64,000 nt of DNA, taken from assembly GCA_026874595.1 (NCBI GenBank), contig CM049308.1, forward strand, positions 459,001 to 523,000, written 5' to 3'. The notes below the pieces were generated by a model, which made no database searches, was not told the origin of the DNA, and was given only the letters and a program-made list of their open reading frames with translations. Of the stretch, positions 27,612 through 63,735 are shown piece after piece (positions within the stretch are counted from its first letter, which is position 1; the number at the start of each line of letters is the position of its first letter). Source of the DNA: Sipunculus nudus (lineage: Eukaryota; Annelida; Sipuncula; Golfingiida; Sipunculidae). Made by a program: the position numbers and the translations under genes.

Positions 27612-28640
27612 TCACAAATCCAAGCGTTGCGGTGTTTTGCGTAATCTTTCTGACCGAAGTGGTTCAGCGGTCAATTTCACACACTCTGCTGACTCGTCTT
27701 GATCTGTTTGGCGAGCTGAATCCTCTGCATGCTGCTGTTCACTCGACTGACCAGCAGTGGGTTGCGGTTCATGTCGAGGAGGTTCAGGTGCCATGACCGA
27801 GCCTTCACCTGGGGGTAAGACAGGTTCTTCCTCCCTGTACAGAGGAGGGCTGACTTGACGATGGAGAAGTTGATCAAAGTGTCGTCTCCAGCTACGACCA
27901 TCGACGAGTCTGACTTAACATGAGACAGGTCCTGCACACTGTTCAATCACTCCTGGCAATCATTTAGTGTTACCAGAATAGTTACGAGCCAACACGGTGT
28001 TGCCAGTCTCAAATTCACGTGAACGTTCATCAGCTTTGATCATGCTTCTTGCCGAGCCAGTACGCGATCACTGACACAAGGCCGAAGAATATTCAATCTG
28101 CATCGCGGGCGTCTATTCATTAAGACTTCTGAAGGACATACTCCGGTAGTTGACTGTGGTGCCAACCTGTAATCCATAAGTAACCGATACAGTATAGATT
28201 CAAGATCACCTGACTGAGTTTTTCTAAGTCCATACTTAATCGTTTCCACTGCACGCTCCGCCAATCCATTGTTTGATGGAAGGGAGCTACCAATTTATGA
28301 CGAATACCGTTCTCACGACAGAACTGTTGGAATTCCTCACTGACAAAACATGGGCCATTATATGAAACGATTATGTGTGGCAATCCATGTGTGGCGAACG
28401 TCTGTCTCAGTTTCCTTACAGTGATTTCTGTAGTCGAGCAAGAGGTCACATGAGCATCAATAAACTCAGTATATGCATCTACAATAACTAATATCATCTT
28501 TCCATCAACTGGTCTAGCATAATCAAGATGGAGACGGAACCAGGGTTTCCCTGGATACTCCCACGGGTGTACTGTAGCTTTAGGAGGATTTCTGGAATGT
28601 TCCTGACCCTCCTAAATCACATGGATAAACAAATATGGCC
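27612..28640 (-). pseudogene. Decayed Ty3/gypsy integrase fragment
   Basis: Minus-strand frames from about 28620 to 27612 carry an integrase core. PWFRLHLDYA at about 28560 holds the first catalytic Asp. VSYNGPCF (near 28370) has Tyr where the family has the second catalytic Asp. MAERAVETIKYGL (28264) holds the catalytic Glu but lies in a different frame. Downstream come PSEVLMNRRPR and a C-terminal tail ending RSERLRKTPQRLDL, typical of metazoan gypsy pol ends. RT, RNase H and gag are absent. At least two frameshifts plus the active-site change make it dead. It is unrelated in detail to the element at 56-64 kb. Confidence 0.8.
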
Positions 28641-32910: not shown

Positions 32911-32920
32911 AGACTACCTA

Positions 32921-35900
32921 CGTTTCTTCGTACCATACACAAGAACAACAGTGTACAAGACCTCCTTCTTTCCTGAAACCATCAGGCAGTGTAACATCAA
33001 TGCTACAGCAGCTCCAGTGGCAGTCTCTCTAGAGCCGGCGGGAAGCATCCAGGGTAGTTATGCTGTACCGGATAGTCAACATTATAGTGGACATAGCAGC
33101 AGATAACTACCTGCAGGAGTCTTCACTAAGAACATGAGGCCACTAACTACGTTTCATCGTACCATACACAGGAACTACAGGGTACAAGACCTCCCCCTTT
33201 CCTGAAACCATCAGGCAGTGTAACATCAATGCTACAGCAGCTCCAGTGGCAATCTCTCTAGAGCCGGCGGGAAGCATCCAGGGTAGTTATGCTGTACCGG
33301 ATAGTCAACAACATAGTGGACATAGCAGCAGATAACTACCTGCAGAAGTCTTCACTAAGAACAAGAGGCCACTAACTACGTTTCTTCGTACCATACACAA
33401 GAACTACAGGGTACAAGACCTCCTTCTTTCCTGAAACCATCAGGCAGTGTAACATCAATGCTACAGCAGCTCCAGTGGCAGTCTCTCTAGAGCCGGCGGG
33501 AAGCATCCAGGGTAGTTATACTGTACCAAATAGTCAACAACATAATGGACATAGCAGCAGATAACTACCTGCAGAAGTCTTCACTAAGAACAAGAGGCCA
33601 CTAACTACGTGTCTTCGTACCATATACAAGAACTACAGGGTACAAGACCTCCTTCTTTCCTGAAACCATCAGGCAGTGCAACATCAATGCTACAGCAGCT
33701 CCAGTGGCAGTCTCTCTAGAGCCGGCGGGAAGCATCCAGGGAAGTTATGCTGTACCATATAGTCAACAACATAGTGGACATACCAGCAGATAACTACCTG
33801 CAGAAGTCTTCACTAAGAACAAGAGGCCACTAACTACGTTTCTTCGTACCATACACAAGAACTACAGGGTACAAGACCTCCTTCTTTCCTGAAACCATCA
33901 GGCAGTGTCACATCAATGCTACAGCAGCTCCAGTGGCAGTCTCTCTAGAGCCGGCGGGAAGCATCCAGGGTAGTTATGCTGTACCAAATAGTCAACAACA
34001 TAGTGGACATAGCAGCAGATAACTACCTGCAGAAGTCTTCACTAAGAACAAGAGGCCACTAACTACGTTTCATCGTACCATACACAGGAACTACAGGGGG
34101 CAAGACCTCCCCCTTTCCTGAAACCATCAGGCAGTGTCACATCAATGCTACAGCAGCTCCAGTGGCAGTCTCTCTAGAGCCGGCGGGAAGCATCCAGGGT
34201 AGTTATGCCGGACCGGATAGTCAACAACATAGTGGACATAGCAGCAGATAACTACCTGCAGAAGTCTTCACTAAGAACAAGAGGCCACTAACTACGTTTC
34301 TTCGTACCATACACAAGAACTACAGGGTACAAGACCTTCTTCTTTCCTGAAACCATCAGGCAGTGTAACATCAATGCTACAGCAGCTCCAGTGGCAGTCT
34401 CTCTAGAGCCGGCGGAAAGCATCCAGGGTAGTTATACTGTACCAAATAGTCAACAACATAGTGGACATAGCAGCAGATAACTACCTGCAGAAGTCTTCAC
34501 TAAGAACAAGAGGCCACTAACTACGTTTCTTCGTACCATACACAAGAACTACAGGGTACAAGACCTCTTTCTTTCCTGAAACCATCAGGCAGTGTAACAT
34601 CAATGCTACAGCAGCTCCAGTGGCAGTCTCTCTAGAGCCGGCGGGAAGCATCCAGGGTAGTTATGCTGTACCAAATAGTCAACAACATAGTGGACATAGC
34701 AGCAGATAACTACCTGCAGAAGTCTTCACTAAGAACAAGAGGCCACTAACTACGTTTCTTCGTACCATACACAAAAACTACAGGGTACAAGACCTCCTTC
34801 TTTCCTGAAACCATCAGGCAGTGTAACATCAATGCTACAGCAGCTCCAGTGGCAGTCTCTCTAGAGCCAGCGGGAAGCATCCAGGGTAGTTATGCTGTAC
34901 CAAATAGTCAACAACATAGTGGACATACCAGCAGATAACTACCTGCAGAAGTCTTTACCAAGAACAAGAGGCCACTAACTACGTTTCTTCGTACCATACA
35001 CAAGAACTACAGGGTACAAGACCTCCTTCTTTCCTGAAACCATCAGGCAGTGTAACATCAATGCTACAGCAGCTCCAGTGGCAGTCTCTCTAGAGCCGGC
35101 GGGAAGCATCCAGGGTAGTTATGCTGTACCAAATAGTCAACAACATAGTGGACATACCAGCAGATAACTACCTGCAGAAGTCTTTACTAAGAACAAGAGG
35201 CCACTAACTACGTTTCTTCGTACCATACACAAGAACTACAGGGTACAAGACCTCCTTCTTTCCTGAAACCATCAGGCAGTGTAACATCAATGCTACAGCA
35301 GCTCCAGTGGCAGTCTCTCTAGAGCCGGCGGGAAGCATCCTGGGTAGTTATGCTGTACCAAATAGTCAACAACATAGTGGACATAGCAGCAGATAACTAC
35401 CTGCAGAAGTCTTTACTAAGAACAAGAGGCCACTAACTACGTTTCTTCGTACCATACACAAGAACTACAGGGTACAAGACCTCCTTCTTTCCTGAAACCA
35501 TCAGGCAGTGTAACATCAATGCTACAGCAGCTCCAGTGGCAGTCTCTCTAGAGCCGGCGGGAAGCATCCTGGGTAGTTATGCTGTACCAAATAGTCAACA
35601 ACATAGTGGACATAGCAGCAGATAACTACCTGCAGAAGTCTTCACTAAGAACAAGAGGCCACTAACTACGTTTCTTCGTACCATACACAAGAACTACAGG
35701 GTACAAGACCTCCTTCTTTCCTGAAACCATCAGGCAGTGTAACATCAATGCTACAGCAGCTCCAGTGGCAGTCACTCTAGAGCCGGCGGGAAGCATCCAG
35801 GGTAGTTATGCTGTACCGGAAAGTCAACAACATAGTGGACATACCAGCAGATAGCTACCTGCAGAAGTCTTCACTAAGAACAAGAGGCCACTAACTACGT

Positions 35901-37530
35901 TTCTTCGTACCATACACAGGAACTACAGGGTACAAGACCTCCTTCTTTCCTGAAACCATCAGGCAGTGCAACATCAATGCTACAGCAGCTCCAGTGGCAG
36001 TCTCTCTAGAGCCGGCGGGAAGCATCCAGGGAAGTTATGCTGTACCATATAGTCAACAACATAGTGGACATAGCAGCAGATATCTACCTGCAGAAGTCTT
36101 CACTAAGAACAAGAGGCCACTAACTACGTTTCTTCGTACCATACACAAGAACTACAGGGTACAAGACCTCCTTCTTTCCTGAAACCATCAGGCAGTGTAA
36201 CATCAATGCTACAGCAGCTCCAGTGGCAGTCTCTCTAGAGCCGGCGGGAAGCATCCAGGGTAGTTATGCTGTACCAAATAGTCAACAACATAGTGGACAT
36301 ACCAGCAGATAACTACCTGCAGAAGTCTTTACTAAGAACAAGAGGCCACTAACTACGTTTCTTCGTACCATACACAAGAACTACAGGGTACAAGACCTCC
36401 TTCTTTCCTGAAACCATCAGGCAGTGTAACATCAATGCTACAGCAGCTCCAGTGGCAGTCTCTCTAGAGCCGGCGGGAAGCATCCTGGGTAGTTATGCTG
36501 TACCAAATAGTCAACAACATAGTGGACATAGCAGCAGATAACTACCTGCAGAAGTCTTCACTAAGAACAAGAGGCCACTAACTACGTTTCTTCGTACCAT
36601 ACACAAGAACTACAGGGTACAAGACCTCCTTCTTTCCTGAAACCATCAGGCAGTGTAACATCAATGCTACAGCAGCTCCAGTGGCAGTCACTCTAGAGCC
36701 GGCGGGAAGCATCCAGGGTAGTTATGCTGTACCGGAAAGTCAACAACATAGTGGACATACCAGCAGATAGCTACCTGCAGAAGTCTTCACTAAGAACAAG
36801 AGGCCACTAACTACGTTTCTTCGTACCATACACAGGAACTACAGGGTACAAGACCTCCTTCTTTCCTGAAACCATCAGGCAGTGCAACATCAATGCTACA
36901 GCAGCTCCAGTGGCAGTCTCTCTAGAGCCGGCGGGAAGCATCCAGGGAAGTTATGCTGTACCATATAGTCAACAACATAGTGGACATAGCAGCAGATATC
37001 TACCTGCAGAAGTCTTCACTAAGAACAAGAGGCCACTAACTACGTTTCTTCGTACCATACACAAGAACTACAGGGTACAAGACCTCCTTCTTTCCTGAAA
37101 CCATCAGGCAGTGTAACATCAATGCTACAGCAGCTCCAGTGGCAGTCTCTCTAGAGCCGGCGGGAAGCATCCAGGGTAGTTATGCTGTACCAAATAGTCA
37201 ACAACATAGTGGACATAGCAGCAGATAACTACCTGCAGAAGTCTTCACTAAGAACAAGAGGCCACTAACTACGTTTCATCGTACCATACACAGGAACTAC
37301 AGGGGGCAAGACCTCCCCCTTTCCTGAAACCACCAGGCAGTGTCACATCAATGCTACAGCAGCTCCAGTGGCAGTCTCTCTAGAGCCGGCGGGAAGCATC
37401 CAGGGTAGTTATGCCGGACCGGATAGTCAACAACATAGTGGACATAGCAGCAGATAACTACCTGCAGAAGTCTTCACTAAGAACAAGAGGCCACTAACTA
37501 CGTTTCTTCGCACCATACACAAGAACAACA
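32921..37530. repeat. 229-bp tandem array from the LINE ORF2 C-terminus
   Basis: The word CGTTTCTTCGTACCATACAC starts at 32921 and its last relative (CGTTTCTTCGCACC) starts at 37501, exactly 20 x 229 bases later. GCTACAGCAGCTCCAGTGG runs from 33002 to 37353, exactly 19 x 229, giving 20 copies. Units are 1-5% different with no net length change. Each encodes, over two frames, SVTSMLQQLQWQSL, then VVMLYRIVNNIVDIAADNYL, then SLRTRGH and LRTIHKNYRVQDLLLS: the LINE C-terminal domain. The junction joins the TSFFPETI end to the SVTSMLQ start. First and last units keep 'aagaacaacagtgtacaaga', while inner ones have 'aagaactacagggtacaaga'. Confidence 0.95.
35765..37100. repeat. Higher-order repeat of four 229-bp units (916 bp)
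   Basis: Variants recur at exactly 916 bp. GCAGTCACTCTAGAG is at 35767 and 36683, and the 62-codon open units at 35994-36182 and 36910-37098 are the same. A second shared variant (CTACAGGGGGCAAGACC, GCCGGACCGGATAG) recurs 14 units (3206 bp) apart at 34091 and 37297. Block duplications have therefore followed the initial expansion. Confidence 0.85.
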
Positions 37531-37696
37531 GTGTACAAGACCTCCTTCTTTACCGACACCATCAGACTGTGGAACCAACTACCAGAGGCCTGGACAGATT
37601 CAAGACCTTACTGTTCAAGGCAACGCAACAGTAGACCATTCTATGTTTATTTTATCTTTTAATCGTTTCAAAACTTTTATATGTACTGTACACAGA

Positions 37697-55430: not shown

Positions 55431-55559
55431 GTATTACAGCCTTATAATGTTCCATGTTACTTTAAAAAATAGTTGAGTATCATATTACTGGTTAAATCAA
55501 GCATACTAATGTAGGTTTTAATTTCTGTCTAATTATAGAATGGCATGTAACTTATCGTC

Positions 55560-56036
55560 TGATACCAAGCTGCTGACTTGTCTCTCGTTCTTAACACCGC
55601 ACGGGACCTGATGACATGCAACCTTGCACGGGGAAATTGTGGATCTTCTTGCGTTCCTCTCTCTCTCTCTCTTGCCTCGCTCTCAGGTCCGTCTACAAGG
55701 ACCAAGGTCTTTATGGCAACCAGGGGTTACAAGTTGCCCCAGACATCTTACACATAGTATATGCAAATCTCCAACACTCCCCCCTGTTTTCTAAAAGGAG
55801 ACCCTGTCTCCAAAACTTAAAAATAAAGCACAACTGTAGTGGAAGCCTCACTGCTCAGCAGTGCCGACCTCTATTACTTAAAAGGGGATTTAGCACATGT
55901 CCAGTGAATATCCCACACAGGATTCACAAATATAAACGACGACACACCAAATAAAAGCATGACCATTAGAACAGCCCAGTCCCGGCTGCTCTGCGTGGAG
56001 CCCGTACCCAGCGCATGGTTCCTCCGACTCTGAACA
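55560..56036 (-). repeat. Candidate 3' LTR
   Basis: On the minus strand TGTTCAGAG begins at 56036, two bases after a 29-nt purine tract. It contains ATTTGCATATACTATG (an octamer-like and TATA-like pair near 55760). No second LTR is available for comparison and the left border is a guess. Confidence 0.35.
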
Positions 56037-56140: not shown

Positions 56141-57011
56141 TCAATACTTCTCTGAATAGCACTTCTTAGAAATGCTCATAGAGACTGGTGGCATTACTGC
56201 TGGTGATTCGCACCCTGTCAACCACTGAGACTCCCCGCAGTCTCGCCAAGCGCTGCAACACCTGGAACAAGTCCAATGATGTATCAGTGAGATACGGGAA
56301 TCTGATTCGAGTAGAAGTCTTTCGAGGGACAACTCCTTCAAAGCCTGGCAGGTGGAGTCATCCTCCATGGACTTTCTGGTAACACCAAAATAAGAATCCT
56401 GTAAAGTCTCTTGCCATTCGTTAGCCTTCTCTAATTTACCCACAAAACAGTGCCTGTGCACTCTCAACTGTGTCATGTTGGTGTCCTTCAGGAGGTTCAA
56501 CATAACTGCTGCCGCTTTACCACTGCCCCTAACATGGATCACGAGGACACGGTTGCTGACTTGGTTGGTTCGGATAGCCTGCAACAAATACCTTAGGAAG
56601 CTATTCTGGTTGGCCTGTTCACTGGGGGGGTCCCTGAGTATTCCAGGCCTACCTCCCCAATGGCCGCGGCCTCGGAGCATTTGACCTTGTTAATGACCTC
56701 GATCGCCTTCCAGGCTGGAATTTTCTCCTTGCCAACCACCCTGGATGCAGCCCAATTGCCAGCTTGGTGGTTAGCCCGGGAACCTCCATTGGTGGCTCCT
56801 TGTTACTGTTTGGGAACACCCTGTTGTCCACCACACCAAACACAGGAAATATTTGGTGACCCATATGCTCACAGAAGACACTCCACGTCCTGTGAACAGT
56901 ACCATAAAGCAACCTGTCTGCGTGCATATGGGCGTCTATAACAGCCGGCGCCATCATCTCTCTGTCCTCCCAAGTCTTGTAGTGGATCTCCTCCGGTACC
57001 CTCTCTATCAA
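56141..57011 (-). pseudogene. TatD-family metal-dependent DNase domain, frameshifted
   Basis: Motifs in order on the minus strand: VIDAHMHADRL (56939-56910), the HxH metal pair; KLAIGLHPGW (near 56750); AIGEVGLE (about 56665-56642, a third frame), the metal-bridging Glu with the usual Asp as Glu; VLVIHVRGSG (His at 56536); LRVHRHCFVG (His at 56452); YFGVTRKS; and LERLLLESD (Asp at 56302), the final ligand. After 56295 the conserved C-terminal helix continues in yet another frame. All ligands of a TIM-barrel TatD hydrolase (TATDN2-like) can be read, but at least three frameshifts separate them. TatD enzymes are Mg-dependent 3'-5' exonucleases or AP-site nucleases. This is the same strand as the upstream pol. 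Confidence 0.85.
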
Positions 57012-57735
57012 CCTCTACCAGATCGAATATTGGAGTATGGACGCCTCGGAGTTGGGTGTAGACGCCTGCAGCACATCGGGCTTGGTCAATCCACACACTG
57101 CTGCCACCTGACGAAGCAAGGCTGCATGCGGGTCTGTAAATCCCTCTTCCGACCGCATCCTCAGGTGATCGAAACAATCCATGTCTCAGCACATACTGCA
57201 GCAACTGTGCAATTGTTTGCAGTTTGAGAGCAGCACTTAGACAATACAGTAAACTGTATGCTCTCCTGACATACCGTCGTTTGTGACTCTCGGCTAACGC
57301 GTCCCAATCATGACTATGGCCCCTTTTCCGATCATATGCGTCACCAGTGGAGATACGGCAGGTATGGCAAGCCGTCTCTGGGACGACCCAGAAGGGTAAA
57401 TGCCGACAGATCACATGCTGATGTACATGACGCGGCGAATATGGCTCATGACAGACAGGACATGGCCTACTGTCGTAGGCAGATGACTTCTTGGGGGCAT
57501 ATCCTGTGGCTTCTTGTTCTTGTCCCCCACACATTTCTGTTCTACCTCGTTTTCGAAGATCCGTAGACGTTGAGCCCTCGTCACTCTGTCCAGGTGTCTG
57601 GGACTCCACCACAACCCTCCTCTGTGACTCCGCTGAGCGGGACTTCACAGAGGGAAACGTCTCTCCGACATCCTGTTCCCCCTCGCTACTCTCTCCACTA
57701 TATACCGGAACAAACTCGTGCTCCCTCGGCTCCAT
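57012..57735 (-). pseudogene. N-terminal part of the TatD ORF with Cys/His cluster
   Basis: An ATG at 57735 opens an acidic, Ser-rich region (MEPREHEFVPVYSGESSEGE), about 90 residues. It is followed by a Cys/His cluster: C-P-V-C, then HVHQHVICRH, then ACHTC (57462-57353), fitting a C-x2-C-x11-H-x4-H or C2HC finger plus a second CxxC. A helical block (YVRRAYSLLYCLSAALKLQT, then LLQYVLRHGL) leads to the TatD domain, which begins in the next frame near 57010. The ATG sits 55 bases after the stop of the preceding short frame. I associate this finger-helix-TatD layout with TATDN2-like proteins multiplied in marine invertebrates. Confidence 0.65.
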
Positions 57736-57813
57736 ATCTGCAAATAGACTTTGGGGCACTTAAAACACTTATTCCTATACCTTAACTATGTTAGTACAGA
57801 AGAATCTTAACAC

Positions 57814-58041
57814 CTAGTCATTCTCTCCTTCACCACTAGATATCACATAATCATGCAAATATATTGGTCTCCGCCTGTTCCTGTTAGACCTCCTCGACTG
57901 CTGTGCAGGCATATCCCCTGAAGGAGACCTTACTCTATCTTGGGACGAGGTCCTCGCAGGAACTCGGGATTCTGGATTGGAAATGTCCTCTAACACCTGT
58001 TCCCCCTGTTGACTATCCCCATTTAGCCCTTGTATGTGCAC
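57814..58041 (-). pseudogene. Pol C-terminal basic tail
   Basis: A frame ending in RRSNRNRRRPIYLHDYV and an acidic SSGEGEND end. Arg-rich R-x-R-R-P-x-x-L-x-D-Y endings are usual for the last residues of metazoan gypsy pol polyproteins. Here it is separated from the integrase by a frameshift near 58100. Confidence 0.6.
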
Positions 58042-58112
58042 TGGCTCGTGAGGGGTTACCTATATCGGACCACCAGCCCCACTGCCTTCATCCTCGCCCA
58101 CGCTATCGGGTG

Positions 58113-59010
58113 TCAACAGTTTATGTGTCGCCCGACGCAACCATAAAGGGTACGAGGTCTTGGTGCAGAGCTTAAGATTGTTAAAGTGCCAATACTTGTC
58201 TTTATTGCTCTGACGCGTCCTGATAAGGTAAACAGGGGGTTTGACTTTATGACCAAGTAAGGACCCTTCCACACAGGCTGCAATTTTGGGCTTAATCCCT
58301 TTTTACTGGTCCTATCCCGCACATATACCACATCCCCAGGGGCAAAATGGGTTTCGTTACACCTCAAGTTGTAGTCGGATTCTTGCGTTACCAGACTTAG
58401 CTTTAATGTATCTCGGACAACCTTGTTTATTTCCGCCTGCCTCTCGATCAGATCCTGCACCCACTGCTCTGGACCCTGCACCTTTAATGGTGCTGGAAGG
58501 CTTCCCAGGACAAGATCGACTGGCTGTATTACCTCACGCCCCAACATGACCTCATTTGGCGTGAAACCAGTGGTTCAATTCACAGTGGCATGCATCGCCT
58601 TTTTTACTAAAAGCAGATCCTCGTCCCACCTATAAGTGTTGCCCTCAATAGAACACCTTATCAGTTGCAGCAATGTCCTATTCTGCACCTCCACCTGACC
58701 ATTGGACGAGGGGTGATAGGGTATTGCGCGCTATTCCCATTGACCTACAGAACGCTGCAAATAGATTAGATTGAAAGTTCTGCCCTTGGTCTGTATGGAC
58801 CTCCAATGGACAGCCAAATGTCACGACAAAATGTTCCAGAAATTTCTGGGCCACTAAATCTGCCTGCTGGTCTAAGTGCACTCTTTCCATTGGAAATCCC
58901 GCATGGTACCTTCTAAGTCTGGCCATGGCATTCCGAGGAACTTTCTTTTCTTGATTGCAAACTTTACAATTCATTACGAACAGTTTGCACTCGTTTTCAT
59001 GTTTGGCCAA
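58113..59010 (-). pseudogene. Integrase, internally deleted and frameshifted
   Basis: The zinc-binding segment is partly visible upstream (HFGR...near 59050) with CKVC at 58967. PMERVHLD (58890) keeps the first catalytic Asp but is followed at once by AQKFLEHFVVTFGCPLEVHTDQG. The second Asp is present, yet about 50 residues usual between them are missing. The catalytic Glu motif PSSNGQVE lies in another frame near 58695. MLGREVIQPVDL (58547) and PVWKGPYLV (about 58270) are the C-terminal target-binding GPY/F module. This integrase inserts the element's DNA in intact relatives. Confidence 0.85.
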
Positions 59011-59023
59011 AAGAAAACACGCT

Positions 59024-60103
59024 TTAACTTTGCATATGTTCTATCTCTCCCAAAGTGTCCTGCAAATTTCGCATAATGACATAGGCCTTTAAGGATATGT
59101 GGATATTTAAGGATTGTGGAACCACCAGTGCTGGTCTTTCTTCCAGTAAATCATGCCAAATGTAATACAACACCCCTTCCTTCACTTTTAAGTTCCGCCG
59201 TTTCAACAGAAGGGATTTTGTCACTGGGCCTGACAGGAATAACTCTGCCTGTGATGGCTCACTCTCTTTTGCAAGCCACTCCATGACAGGGCCGATGTCG
59301 CTGTCATCCTGCTGTCCTCTCCTAAGATTCTTTGCTGAGTAGGTCTGTGCCCAGTTGCTTTGTATCCAACTCTCTCCCATGGTTGCAGGATCCGGAGGCT
59401 GTTGTAGTGTTTCTGGTTCAACGGTAACCACCTCATCCTGCTGGCTCTCACTACCAGTATAATCCTCAAACATTCCCGTCAAAAACAAATCTTCCGCTTC
59501 AACTCCTTTACCGTCGTTCTCGGTGCTGTTTACTACACTGGATTCCTCTGAAGAGTTGGATGTGCAACCCTCATCCACAGATAGAACTTTGGCGTACTTG
59601 ACCAAAAAGTGTTCTGACTCGATTTTGCCAAGCGCCGATAACGGTCCACAAGGCTCAGTTCTAAGAGAACTTGGAACCAATGGAACTACATCGTCAACCT
59701 CTTCTGAGAACTGGTTCCATTGTTTGTGAGCTCTCTCACAATAGGCACAACCCTCAATGTGCCTAAACCGAGTTAGCCATGCCAAGCTGTTATGATCAGT
59801 TCTTATCGTAAACTGCCTGCCGAGCAGGTAGTGTCTAAAATGGCGACAGAACTTTACGACAGCTAACAACTCCTTCCTTGTGGTACAATATTTTCTCTGC
59901 GCTGCTAACAGCACATGACTGGCAAAAGCAACAGTCCTTTCTTTGCCCTCCTGGATCTGCGATAGCTCAGCCCCGATTGTTCCATCTGACGCATCACAGT
60001 CAAGGATAAACATGCCCTCCCTTTGAGGGAAAGCCAAGCAGGGTTGAGAACTCAACGACTGTTTCAAAACTTCAAATGATGCCTGATGTTTCCGGCAACC
60101 CAT
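59024..60103 (-). pseudogene. RNase H and connection to integrase
   Basis: This is the longest clean frame of the element (359 codons). RNase H carboxylates: FILDCDASDG (Asp37), TTRKELLAV (Glu78) and RTDHNSLAWL (Asp103). A Ser/Glu-rich spacer of ~130 residues follows, then the integrase N-terminal approach (LVVPQSLN). The frame drifts near its end, where the His-His zinc pair is read in the neighbouring frame. RNase H removes the RNA template during reverse transcription. Confidence 0.85.
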
Positions 60104-60862
60104 TGAAATTGATCTTTTGCTTGGTCAGCTGGAACAATGGCTCCGATAAACCTGCATATCCTCGCATATGAGCACGGTGATAGTTTGCGTACCCTAAGAA
60201 GCTTTCCAACTCCTTCCTGTTGGTTGGAGGGGGCCATTTCTGCAAGACTTCTTCTTTCGCAGGACTTATGTTTACACCCTCTCTAGTAATCTTCCGTCCC
60301 AAGAATTCAATTTTCTGTCTAAACAGGCAGCACTTAGTAGGCTTTAACCTCAAATTGTACCGTCGGAGTCTGTCAAAAACCCTTGCTAGACTTGCCAGAT
60401 GTGACTCAAAGCTCTTGCCCAGAACTATTACATCATCCAGGTAGACGAGGACTTCCATCTATATCAACCAGGTCAAAACCAGATTGATTGCACGCTGGAA
60501 TGTCGATGGTGCGTTGCAGAGTCCCATACCTATTCTGGTGTGCTCGTACAACCCATACTTTGTGATGAAACCGTCTTTCTACTCGATTCCTCATCTAATT
60601 CTATCTGGTAATACCCAAATGCTAAGTCAAGGGTGCTAAAGAACTGGGCCCCCGCCAAGGTATCCAGACAATCCTCTATCAATGGCAGAGGGTACAAATC
60701 CTTGACAGTCCTATCGTTAAGGGACCTATAATAACGCACCAGCGTACAGACCCATCTTTCTTTCTTTTGCACCAACACCGGCGCAGACGCCCACTCCGAA
60801 ACTGATGGCCTCATAACACCTGCAGTCAAAAGCTTGTCAAGATTTTTTTCCCTCGCCCTCAA
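60072..60862 (-). pseudogene. Reverse transcriptase core
   Basis: 60862-60530 holds LYPLPLIEDCLDTLAG and FFSTLDLAFGYYQIE with the first catalytic Asp (60628). A second frame has the GMGLCNAPSTFQR motif and a stop at about 60461. 60458-60072 resumes with VYLDDVIVLG (catalytic DD), FLGRKI and FLGYANYHR. The frames differ, so at least one frameshift and one stop interrupt the enzyme. Ty3/gypsy type is clear from the YLDD and FLGxxNYYR-like motifs. Confidence 0.88.
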
Positions 60863-61295
60863 AACCTAACGGAGTTCTTCTCATTCGTTCCCGTACATGC
60901 GGTGCACTTCCGGTGTCAATTCTATGCTGGATTCCCTTCATGCACCCCAAATCCAGATCATGAGATGCAAATACATCTTGGTAACTCATCAGGAGCTCCC
61001 CAAGACTCGTCAACTGAGACTCTGTCAGCTCCTTTTTTCTTGTGTTTTCAAACAAGGTAACTAGGTGTTGCGGCATTCCTGCCATAACCTCAGACAGTCT
61101 ATCCTGTAGTTCACCTCCAGAACTGTCACAGACCGGTGAACTGACACTCCCTGTGTCAGCTCCTATACATGCTTCTCTAGAGCACGACTCCACTAAACCG
61201 CAACCTGATGGCTCTATGGGTAGATTTACATTGCCGCCCGCAAACGGGCCTGCAAAGTCTTCTTGGACAACAGATAGCCTCACTACAGGTGACAC
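60837..61295 (-). pseudogene. Pol linker and RT N-terminal segment
   Basis: ELTESQLTSLGELLMSYQDV, then FASHDLDLGCMKGIQHRIDT, then RRTPLGFE: the conserved run-up to the RT fingers in gypsy pol. The preceding ~60 residues are low in similarity. Confidence 0.75.
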
Positions 61296-61789: not shown

Positions 61790-62228
61790 CTATGACACAC
61801 TCTTGTCACATAGAAAACCGAGCCCTAGCAGAACAGGATCAGGTATTTCTGCCACATACACCGTCCAAGTATGTACCGAATTTCCTAACTTGGTGGAAAT
61901 TCCTTCCCTTTTTACAGCTGAAACTTTTTCTTCCTGGTCCCCGATACCCTCAAGGATCACCTTTTTGCCTTCCTGCTTTTCAAAAGTTTCCCCCAAATAC
62001 TCGTTGGCTTACCACTGTTACCTGAGCCGCACTGTCGACAATGGCTTCACTCTCCCGACCATTAACGACAATCGGTACCACTAGACTTAGTCCCATGCAC
62101 CTCCTGATGTGTATTACGTCACTGTCCTCCTGAACCTGGGGCTCCTCGGAATTATAACTGCTTATCACTTGTTGATCTGTTGTCACAGCTCCTCCTGGAG
62201 CTATTTGTTCCTTGACATCTGGAATCAC
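61790..62228 (-). pseudogene. Retropepsin-like aspartic protease
   Basis: AIVDSAAQVTVVS (catalytic Asp at 62036) has the D-S-A-A form seen in some invertebrate gypsy proteases in place of D-T-G-A. The downstream flank IPDPVLLGLGFL (about 61840) is in a different frame, so one frameshift lies between 62036 and 61996. Confidence 0.75.
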
Positions 62229-62487
62229 ACAAGAAATTATTTGGCAATTGTCTACTACATGGTCACTTTCAATAATTCTTTGGTTTCTGTTTCTTGACTA
62301 GGCATACTGGAAAACCCCTAATCCGCTCGCATATCTGGTACACAGTTACTTGAAACAACATTGCAGCCACAATCATCAGAAACACATGGCCGACTTTCAT
62401 TACTTACACTAACACTTTATACCGCTGATTCAACCTTTCCCTGTTGGCCTGTCGGTTCGGTCGAGCTATGGCCACCTGCCTCGACTC

Positions 62488-62937
62488 CTACAAGTTTAAA
62501 GGCTGTTGCTGACCTTCTGGTGGGCACTGTGCACCGCTAGAGGTTCCCACAGTAGCAGCTACTGTTTCAGCAGCCCTCGGCTGCCGAGTAGGACAATTCC
62601 GTGCGAAGTGACCATTCCTGCGACATTTAAAGCACAGAGTTTGATTGCGACCTCTACCTGCATTCTGTTGGAAATGCTGACCACTCTGTCGATACCTTTT
62701 CCCCAGTCTCTCAAACTGGAAAACGAATGTGTACCAGTCCTCCTCACCACTAAATGTTGGCATCCTGGCAGAGACTGGTGACCTACGTCTTCTACTGTGG
62801 CATCTTTGGTAATTTTGATATCCACGATTCCCAGAGCGCCGAAAACGGTTACCCACATGAGAATCGCTGTCATACTCTGACGACACACTAGGTTCCCTGC
62901 TGGTAATGCATGACGACTCATCAGAGCTGTCGTGCAA
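62488..62937 (-). pseudogene. Gag with zinc knuckle
   Basis: A basic Ser/Arg-rich region leads to MPTFSGEEDWYTFVFQFERL, which is the start of the gypsy gag core. Almost immediately comes LCFKCRRNGHFARNCP, a C-x2-C-x4-H-x4-C knuckle (62634-62593). Intact gag proteins of this kind have a long helical capsid region between the two, so a deletion is inferred at about 62695. Confidence 0.85.
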
Positions 62938-63735
62938 TTCATGCCGCTGCTAATGCCTCCTTCCCCATCTCTCATAATTGTGTTCCCTGGTGGGCCGCCC
63001 AAAAGCCATGTTCCTCCTTGACATCCGCTGTGGCCAATGTCTGTCCTGATTGCCACTGGACCAATGAGTAGCAAGGGCACTGGCTCCTTGATGATCCTTT
63101 TAGTGCCATAAACTATCACTATCATCATGTGAGACTGGCCTCGGTTGGCCTGAACTGCCGTCTCTCGGATCCTTTGAGGATCGATCATGATGGTTTCTGG
63201 TACGCCGCTCAGCAACTGTTCCAGGGGGACTCTGTCTATATACACTTGGTTGCGGCTGCAGGTGACCTTTCTTGATGGCTGTCAATAGTGCTGCTACAGA
63301 ATTAACCAATGGGGTAGCTTAAGTATGTGTCGGCTCTGGAAGGGCAGCTATTTGACAGGGCGGAGTGGATCTTATCTCTTGTACAAGTGGCGCCACCTGT
63401 GGTGGCAGTATCTGCTTGGTAGGCAGAGATTCCATGCGGGGTGCAGTACGGGTTGCATGATCTGATACAAGGTTGGCAGGGTGATGCCTATCATTGGAAT
63501 TCCCCCTAAAATTTACTCCCATACATACTTCTGATTTTAGGACAGATATCTGTGGGCATACACTATCTGATGGGACTTGGTCTTGCTGGCACATAACATT
63601 ATCAAGAACTGCTAACCTGTCATGTAGGTTTCTCAGGTAAAAGGTAAGAGGCATTATCAGGTAAAACAGACTTACCTGCCACTGTTCTCCCAGTATCTTT
63701 ATGCACATTAGATGTGGAACCCACTCTAGTGACAA
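62938..63735 (-). pseudogene. Gag N-terminal region, broken
   Basis: The frame from 63735 contains YLRNLHDRLAVLDNVMCQQD, plausibly a short coiled coil, and Pro/Thr-rich low-complexity sequence. It stops at 63319, and 63309-62938 continues in other frames (RRTRNHHDRSSKDPRDGSSG). The original start codon cannot be chosen. 63736-64000 is leader-like with no clear frame. Confidence 0.5.

Follow-up and report, generated by a model that had tools for sequence, protein, structure and literature searches.

Gypsy elements of the env-bearing (errantivirus) type have a third open reading frame (ORF) between pol and the 3' long terminal repeat (LTR), which is perhaps expressed from a spliced RNA. Here we describe a Ty3/gypsy lineage of the sipunculan Sipunculus nudus (genome size 1.43 Gb), one decayed copy of which lies in a stretch of 64,000 nucleotides (C3:459001-523000, hereafter the window), and which carries a TatD nuclease gene in that same place. 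Set against what is generally known of errantiviruses, the third ORF of this lineage encodes an enzyme without membrane features and not a fusion glycoprotein. The closest precedent is the DEDDy-exonuclease ORF3 of bdelloid rotifer elements: according to the sections available to us of the report on them, the Juno and Vesta LTR elements bear an ORF3 for a DEDDy exonuclease or a GDSL esterase, and these ORF3s come from a spliced message (PMC5408684). As far as that partial account goes, both systems have an extra enzyme ORF after pol in place of a true env, with catalytic residues retained, a nuclease suited to 3' ends, some families that do without it, and no transmembrane domain. They differ in that the rotifer nuclease is of the DEDDy (RNase D-like) type and was acquired at least twice, whereas here it is TatD, a metal-dependent barrel, joined to a conserved Cys/His N-terminal domain (N-domain) in families that group together.

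TatD nucleases of Group II are of the HxH type (PMC10085689, in the part consulted). In the accessible portions of two studies, E. coli TatD is described as a 3'-5' exonuclease on single-stranded DNA and RNA, TATDN1 and TATDN3 as apurinic/apyrimidinic (AP) endonucleases and 3'-exonucleases, and TATDN2 as an enzyme that resolves R-loops (PMC12709183, PMC10085689). Enzymatic ORF3s, including a nuclease, are already known. No report of TatD in a retroelement was found in the literature searched, most subscription journals and Repbase lying outside that search.

A TatD gene between integrase and the 3' LTR

The gypsy lineage carries a separate ORF of ~500 amino acids after pol and before the 3' LTR, and this ORF moves as part of the element. 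We read 19 TatD loci (L010-L028), ten of them on the 5' side as well. Pol pieces lie upstream of TatD on the same strand in 18 of the 19, in the order protease, reverse transcriptase (RT), RNase H, integrase, TatD within the reach of each stretch; in L019 the pol lacks integrase, and no pol pieces were seen in the short upstream stretch examined of L018. LTR pairs enclose pol and TatD in 9 of the 11 copies examined on both sides, that is, in the window copy and in 8 of 10 further ones, and perfect 4-bp target-site duplications flank all eight copies, the window copy included, for which both outer LTR ends are in hand (ATAA, ATAT, GTTA, TATA, CGTA, ATAT, CTAT and GTAT; LTR ends were placed by inspection, and not all end in CA). 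The two LTRs are 100% identical in L012, L013 and L014 (over 207-210 bp) and in L023 (over 156 bp, the outer end being cut off in the stretch read), 99.6% identical in L020 and L028, 97.3% in L019 and 96.9% in L021; no pair was found on the two sides examined of L024 and L025. The TatD frame spans 490-708 codons in 17 of the 19 loci; in L020 and L021 it is either shortened or interrupted. In the L012 family it is separate from pol, 505 codons long, and opens 22 nt past the pol stop in a different frame; its first ATG lies ~70 nt past that stop. The L012 copy adjoins a frame resembling a non-LTR reverse transcriptase (L012 8484-10000, judged by eye), perhaps an insertion into a long interspersed nuclear element.

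The window copy runs on the minus strand from past the window end down to 55.5 kb and measures ~9.65 kb between the outer ends of its two LTRs. Gag followed by protease, RT, RNase H and integrase, an LTR pair, a polypurine tract and a short target duplication mark the lineage as Ty3/gypsy, an assignment based on domain matches and on a tree of integrases from this genome alone. The parts of the window copy, in the order in which the element is read, are as follows (positions within the window).

62488..62949, minus strand: gag zinc knuckle (PF00098, 6.3e-06); the element continues past the window end
61980..62297, minus strand: protease piece (weak Pfam match; tblastn to relatives)
60072..60865, minus strand: reverse transcriptase, two pieces (PF00078, 6.6e-10 and 3.6e-04)
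59024..60124, minus strand: RNase H and connection (PF17919, 1.9e-30)
58678..59040, minus strand: integrase core piece (PF00665, 1.1e-06)
58113..58574, minus strand: integrase C-terminal domain, MLVIN_C (PF18697, 1.6e-07)
57814..58059, minus strand: integrase basic tail (open frame; alignment to L045)
57781..57788, minus strand: junction motif TAGTTAAG, common to other families (junction comparison)
57738..57748, minus strand: weak acceptor-like TCTATTTGCAG just before the ATG (junction sequence)
56141..57735, minus strand: TatD ORF region, broken over several frames, with its ATG at 57735 (open frames, PF01026, motif positions)
56869..57735, minus strand: open piece with the N-terminal Cys/His domain (alignment with relatives; tblastn)
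56649..57014, minus strand: open piece with the HxH motif at 56942 (tblastn, alignment, motif positions)
56141..56689, minus strand: open piece with the TatD C-terminal half, IHVR, VHRHCF and LLLESD (PF01026, 4.7e-13)
55777..55790, minus strand: polypurine tract, directly before the 3' LTR (sequence)
55507..55776, minus strand: 3' LTR (93% over 270 bp to C3:523892-524155)
55503..55506, minus strand: target-site duplication GTAT, 3' side (partner at C3:524156-524159, outside the window)

The 5' LTR lies just past the window end in the same orientation as the 3' LTR, and GTAT stands at both outer ends of the element. Because this LTR pair and the duplication enclose the TatD gene, it lies inside the element, as the original prediction had proposed from the window alone. 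That prediction had also placed the gene ~55 bases after pol and ahead of a purine tract and an LTR-like end, which agrees with a last pol frame ending at 57814, a next frame starting at 57759, and the tract and LTR given above; the matching 5' LTR that it called for was found beyond the window, together with the partner of the target duplication. It erred in reading all metal-ligand motifs from one frame. The set is complete (HxH 56942, GEVGL 56664, IHVR 56539, VHRHCF 56461 and LLLESD 56317), but it is split over three different frames, no single open frame covers the gene, and only the C-terminal one of the three open pieces gives a Pfam match on its own. The window copy of the TatD gene is broken.

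Elsewhere in the window lie a second, very different integrase fragment (28120-28611, minus strand; PF00665, 1.9e-11) and a satellite array (32913-37565) of ~20 copies of a 229-bp unit with 96% matches.

TatD loci across the genome

A profile search of the genome with PF01026 gave 138 matches, of which 14, on small contigs (C61 and above), were set aside as probably not animal; the other 124 merged to 109 loci. The strongest matches are uninterrupted and recur on small contigs C61-C89, which are probably bacterial sequence in the assembly. With integrase queries from two TatD families, an integrase was found on the same strand at most 6 kb upstream at 62 of the 109 loci; RNase H matches add 11 loci and L026, read directly, adds one, so that at least 74 of the 109 have a same-strand gypsy pol upstream. 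This is a lower bound, since the genome search scores the best candidates only and the count draws on all 93 matches of one integrase set, on 31 of the 94 of the other (selected by eye) and on 27 RNase H matches selected by eye from at least 178. Opposite-strand integrase within 6 kb was found at none of the 47 TatD loci lacking a same-strand one, the sole loci checked for it. The remaining 35 loci include the exon-split host gene L134 and many short pieces. The suggestion that many TATDN2-like genes are retroelement cargo thus holds for this genome.

At C12:71232972-71270216, four RNase H matches of the window subfamily (78-83%) lie on one strand with ~12.6, 12.08 and 12.09 kb between them; the element may be part of a tandem array there.

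The ORF protein and its expression

The ORF consists of the conserved Cys/His N-domain and a Group II (HxH) TatD nuclease domain. PF01026 matches with 102-149 bits, above its cut-off, in all five relatives searched, and the predicted fold is that of a soluble TatD barrel. The metal ligands HxH, E, H, H and D were found by pattern in 15 of the 19 loci, in the window copy only across its three frames. The N-domain looks like a metal-binding one. A simple hydropathy scan of six ORFs found no hydrophobic stretch fit for a membrane and neither a signal peptide nor a transmembrane segment.

The junctions between pol and TatD are non-coding. Six of eight families carry the motif TAGTTAAG (5000 shuffles gave a mean of 0.05 and a maximum of 2); it stands in the window junction and in those of L017, L021, L023, L025 and L028, in some of them near ACTAAC or an inverted repeat, and it is present in TatD-deleted copies too. 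In some junctions the ATG is immediately preceded by a polypyrimidine stretch and CAG. By analogy with env, a spliced subgenomic RNA probably serves to express the ORF separately from Gag-Pol.

Descent and relatives

In alignment, the TatDs of other families in this genome are 33-41% identical to that of L012, and between TatD families synonymous sites are saturated, with 0.62-0.67 nonsynonymous changes per site (dN). In a midpoint-rooted integrase tree of nine sequences from copies other than that of the window (a version with too distant an outgroup was discarded), the six TatD-bearing ones lie on one side of a 100/99 branch, and a TatD-less family and two elements with other finger ORFs lie on the other. 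Since strongly diverged TatD families share one integrase clade, the association of TatD with gypsy is old. L017 and L024 pair in the integrase tree and in the TatD tree alike, as would be expected if integrase and TatD had travelled together.

The TatD tree sets eight element and ten database TatDs on one side of a 98/95 branch, against 23 bacterial TatDs and one host gene; the bacterial ones are seven database proteins and every fourth pattern-fitting locus of a prokaryote collection, and P0001-P0010 carry the label 'element' by assignment, their genomic context not having been seen. This separate branch argues that the element TatD is no fresh pick-up of the host gene in the tree. It also sets the element TatDs apart from Group II nucleases such as YcfH, YjjV, TATDN3 and TATDN2, from which they differ further in being element-borne and in having the N-domain added.

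The best database relatives are P0001 for TatD (46%) and P0024 for pol (66%). The longest contig given for each is 557,787 bases, the simplest reading being that they are the same element in another genome, though the neighbourhood of the two was not seen; P0002 stands for 27 sequences, as expected for a repeat. A relative is encoded in 469 of 592 stretches of the prokaryote collection, and the best 80 of these 469 matches all begin at about residue 190 or later, within the TatD half, the N-domain not being seen among them. In a viral collection, 33 stretches fit a pattern and none is a relative. The N-domain of P0001, used as sole query, returned only P0001 among 129 candidates.

Related pol proteins elsewhere (P0040, P0107, P0137 and P0108) carry the extra Pfam domains PF01661, which comes with the source name O-acetyl-ADP-ribose deacetylase, and PF07496 and PF00628, which we take to be zf-CW and PHD; perhaps these are other captured modules. 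A map of the giant squid Hox cluster shows a gene labelled 'TATDN2' next to one labelled pogo transposable element (figure legend of PMC6962438), and this TATDN2 could be a copy of such an element.

Discussion

As a whole, the best explanation of these findings is probably that the element-borne Cys/His and TatD ORF is a separately made accessory nuclease acting in trans. The product is likely to be a two-metal 3'-exonuclease/endonuclease brought to nucleic acid by the N-domain. From the known activities of TatD proteins we propose, only tentatively, an accessory role in trans, with RNA-DNA hybrids, R-loops or free 3' ends as substrates; of the roles considered this is the likeliest, with counter-defence next and passive cargo after it. 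Produced separately from Gag-Pol via a spliced subgenomic RNA, the protein would be led by its N-domain to nucleic acid and would work in trans on such intermediates of the element's replication or integration, and TatD would be helpful to the element while being dispensable in cis. An accessory nuclease is favored because the N-domain looks metal-binding and a membrane segment is absent. The best outside argument is that an unrelated DEDDy 3'-exonuclease sits in the same position in rotifer elements, which suggests that a 3'-end activity is useful there.

Several observations weigh against this explanation, above all the frequency with which TatD is missing. On at least four occasions it was deleted while the 3' LTR was retained. 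The stretch after integrase was read for ten loci without a TatD match (L039-L048), a class that may include decayed TatDs. L039-L042, of L017 type, have in common one deletion of ~1.39 kb that spares the first ~38 codons and the tail; as 25 of the 30 L017-family integrase loci counted lack a TatD match (4 of the 25 having been read), one deleted form has multiplied. L043 and L044, of the L012 family, have two different deletions whose joints overlap by 8 and 9 bases, which is what template switching would leave. L045 comes from the window copy's closest relative; it has lost TatD while junction and tail remain, and its LTR matches that of the window at 89%. The flanking non-coding parts are retained in the deleted copies read. 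At 27 of the 88 merged loci found with the L012 integrase there was no TatD match within 6 kb. When loci are ranked by RNase H, a TatD match lies downstream in only three (C5:40.9 Mb, C2:1.86 Mb and C2:25.1 Mb) of the 11 nearest to the window copy. A further family, L046 with L049, L050 and L051 (C7:53.23 Mb, C17:43.90 Mb and C5:57.82 Mb), has the N-domain (hhalign E 4.4e-15) without TatD in the env position in all three copies read. These deletions, the spread of a deleted form and the TatD-less close relatives together indicate that TatD is not needed in cis.

Other points on the same side concern the protein, its expression and its relatives. L019 has HxN and L024 has Q for the metal-binding E, and L026 and L027 miss the patterns. 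Within families, the ratio of nonsynonymous to synonymous rates (dN/dS), which the original prediction had proposed as a check, ranges from 0.25 to 1.76 on few changes and is uninformative since the copies are too alike. Of eight junctions, just two have acceptor-like sites that stand clearly above shuffles (p 0.0025 and 0.004), the others giving 0.13-0.97. P0002-P0011 share no longest-contig figure with the 120 pol proteins listed of 4349, so that P0001 is the only one of 11 to do so. The original prediction had named what would speak against it, namely relatives in which the LTR follows integrase with no TatD between them, the TatD being an independent host gene. Such relatives do exist, yet 7 of the 10 TatD-less loci read are deletion derivatives within TatD families, and the gene is not an independent host gene.

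Two related gypsy elements, L047 (C17:26.84 Mb) and L048 (C3:1.80 Mb), have other Cys/His finger ORFs after integrase; homology of these ORFs with the N-domain was looked for and found no support.

A role in counter-defence, in which TatD would serve as an AP endonuclease or exonuclease against host restriction of complementary DNA (cDNA), deaminated or abasic, or against rival cDNA, is less probable than an accessory function. AP endonuclease activity is described for TATDN1, TATDN3 and three TatD paralogs of E. coli in the part of PMC10085689 consulted, and the second NCBIfam match of the L012 TatD, below cut-off, is QatD of an anti-phage system. However, TatD-less forms have spread as well. 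Less probable again is that TatD was acquired once and has since been carried without benefit to the element. Repeated deletions that leave the element ends intact, the multiplication of one deleted form, and a within-family dN/dS that is not below 1 in every pair would all fit such passive cargo. Against it, recently moved copies still hold TatD, and motifs and open frame were retained although the subfamilies have diverged at 59-67% of TatD residues and to saturation at synonymous sites.

It is also rather unlikely that the N-domain does the main work, in nucleic-acid or target binding, with TatD a later addition or on its way out: the N-domain does stand alone in the same place in the three copies read of the TatD-less family, but TatD may have been either gained or lost there, the tree being midpoint-rooted. 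That the ORF is an env-like protein of unusual origin is highly improbable, since against its position after pol and the acceptor-like sites of some junctions stand the predicted soluble barrel and six ORFs with no membrane-fit stretch among them, and an env function was rejected on this absence of membrane features. An independent host TATDN gene beside an insertion, for which the exon-split cellular locus might speak, is refuted by LTR pairs, target duplications and recurrence at most TatD loci, the element TatDs forming a clade of their own and being neither intron-split nor grouped with the one cellular TATDN gene compared.

In a joint reading that we put forward with reserve, it might be that an old yet recently active animal gypsy lineage encodes a targeted nuclease of its own, the Cys/His N-domain joined to TatD, as a trans-acting replication or counter-defence factor, that TatD-deleted derivatives multiply by borrowing it, and that a large share of the 'TATDN2-like' genes predicted for marine invertebrates are copies of such elements.

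With this finding, the enzymes in the env position of LTR elements include a second nuclease fold, unrelated to the first, and the presence of both TatD and DEDDy there suggests that an activity processing 3' ends or hybrids is useful in this place. Natural pairs of families with and without TatD in one genome allow the contribution of TatD to be compared. Finally, mobile elements may make up most of the TatD 'gene families' counted in the genomes of invertebrates, as they account here for at least 74 of 109 loci.
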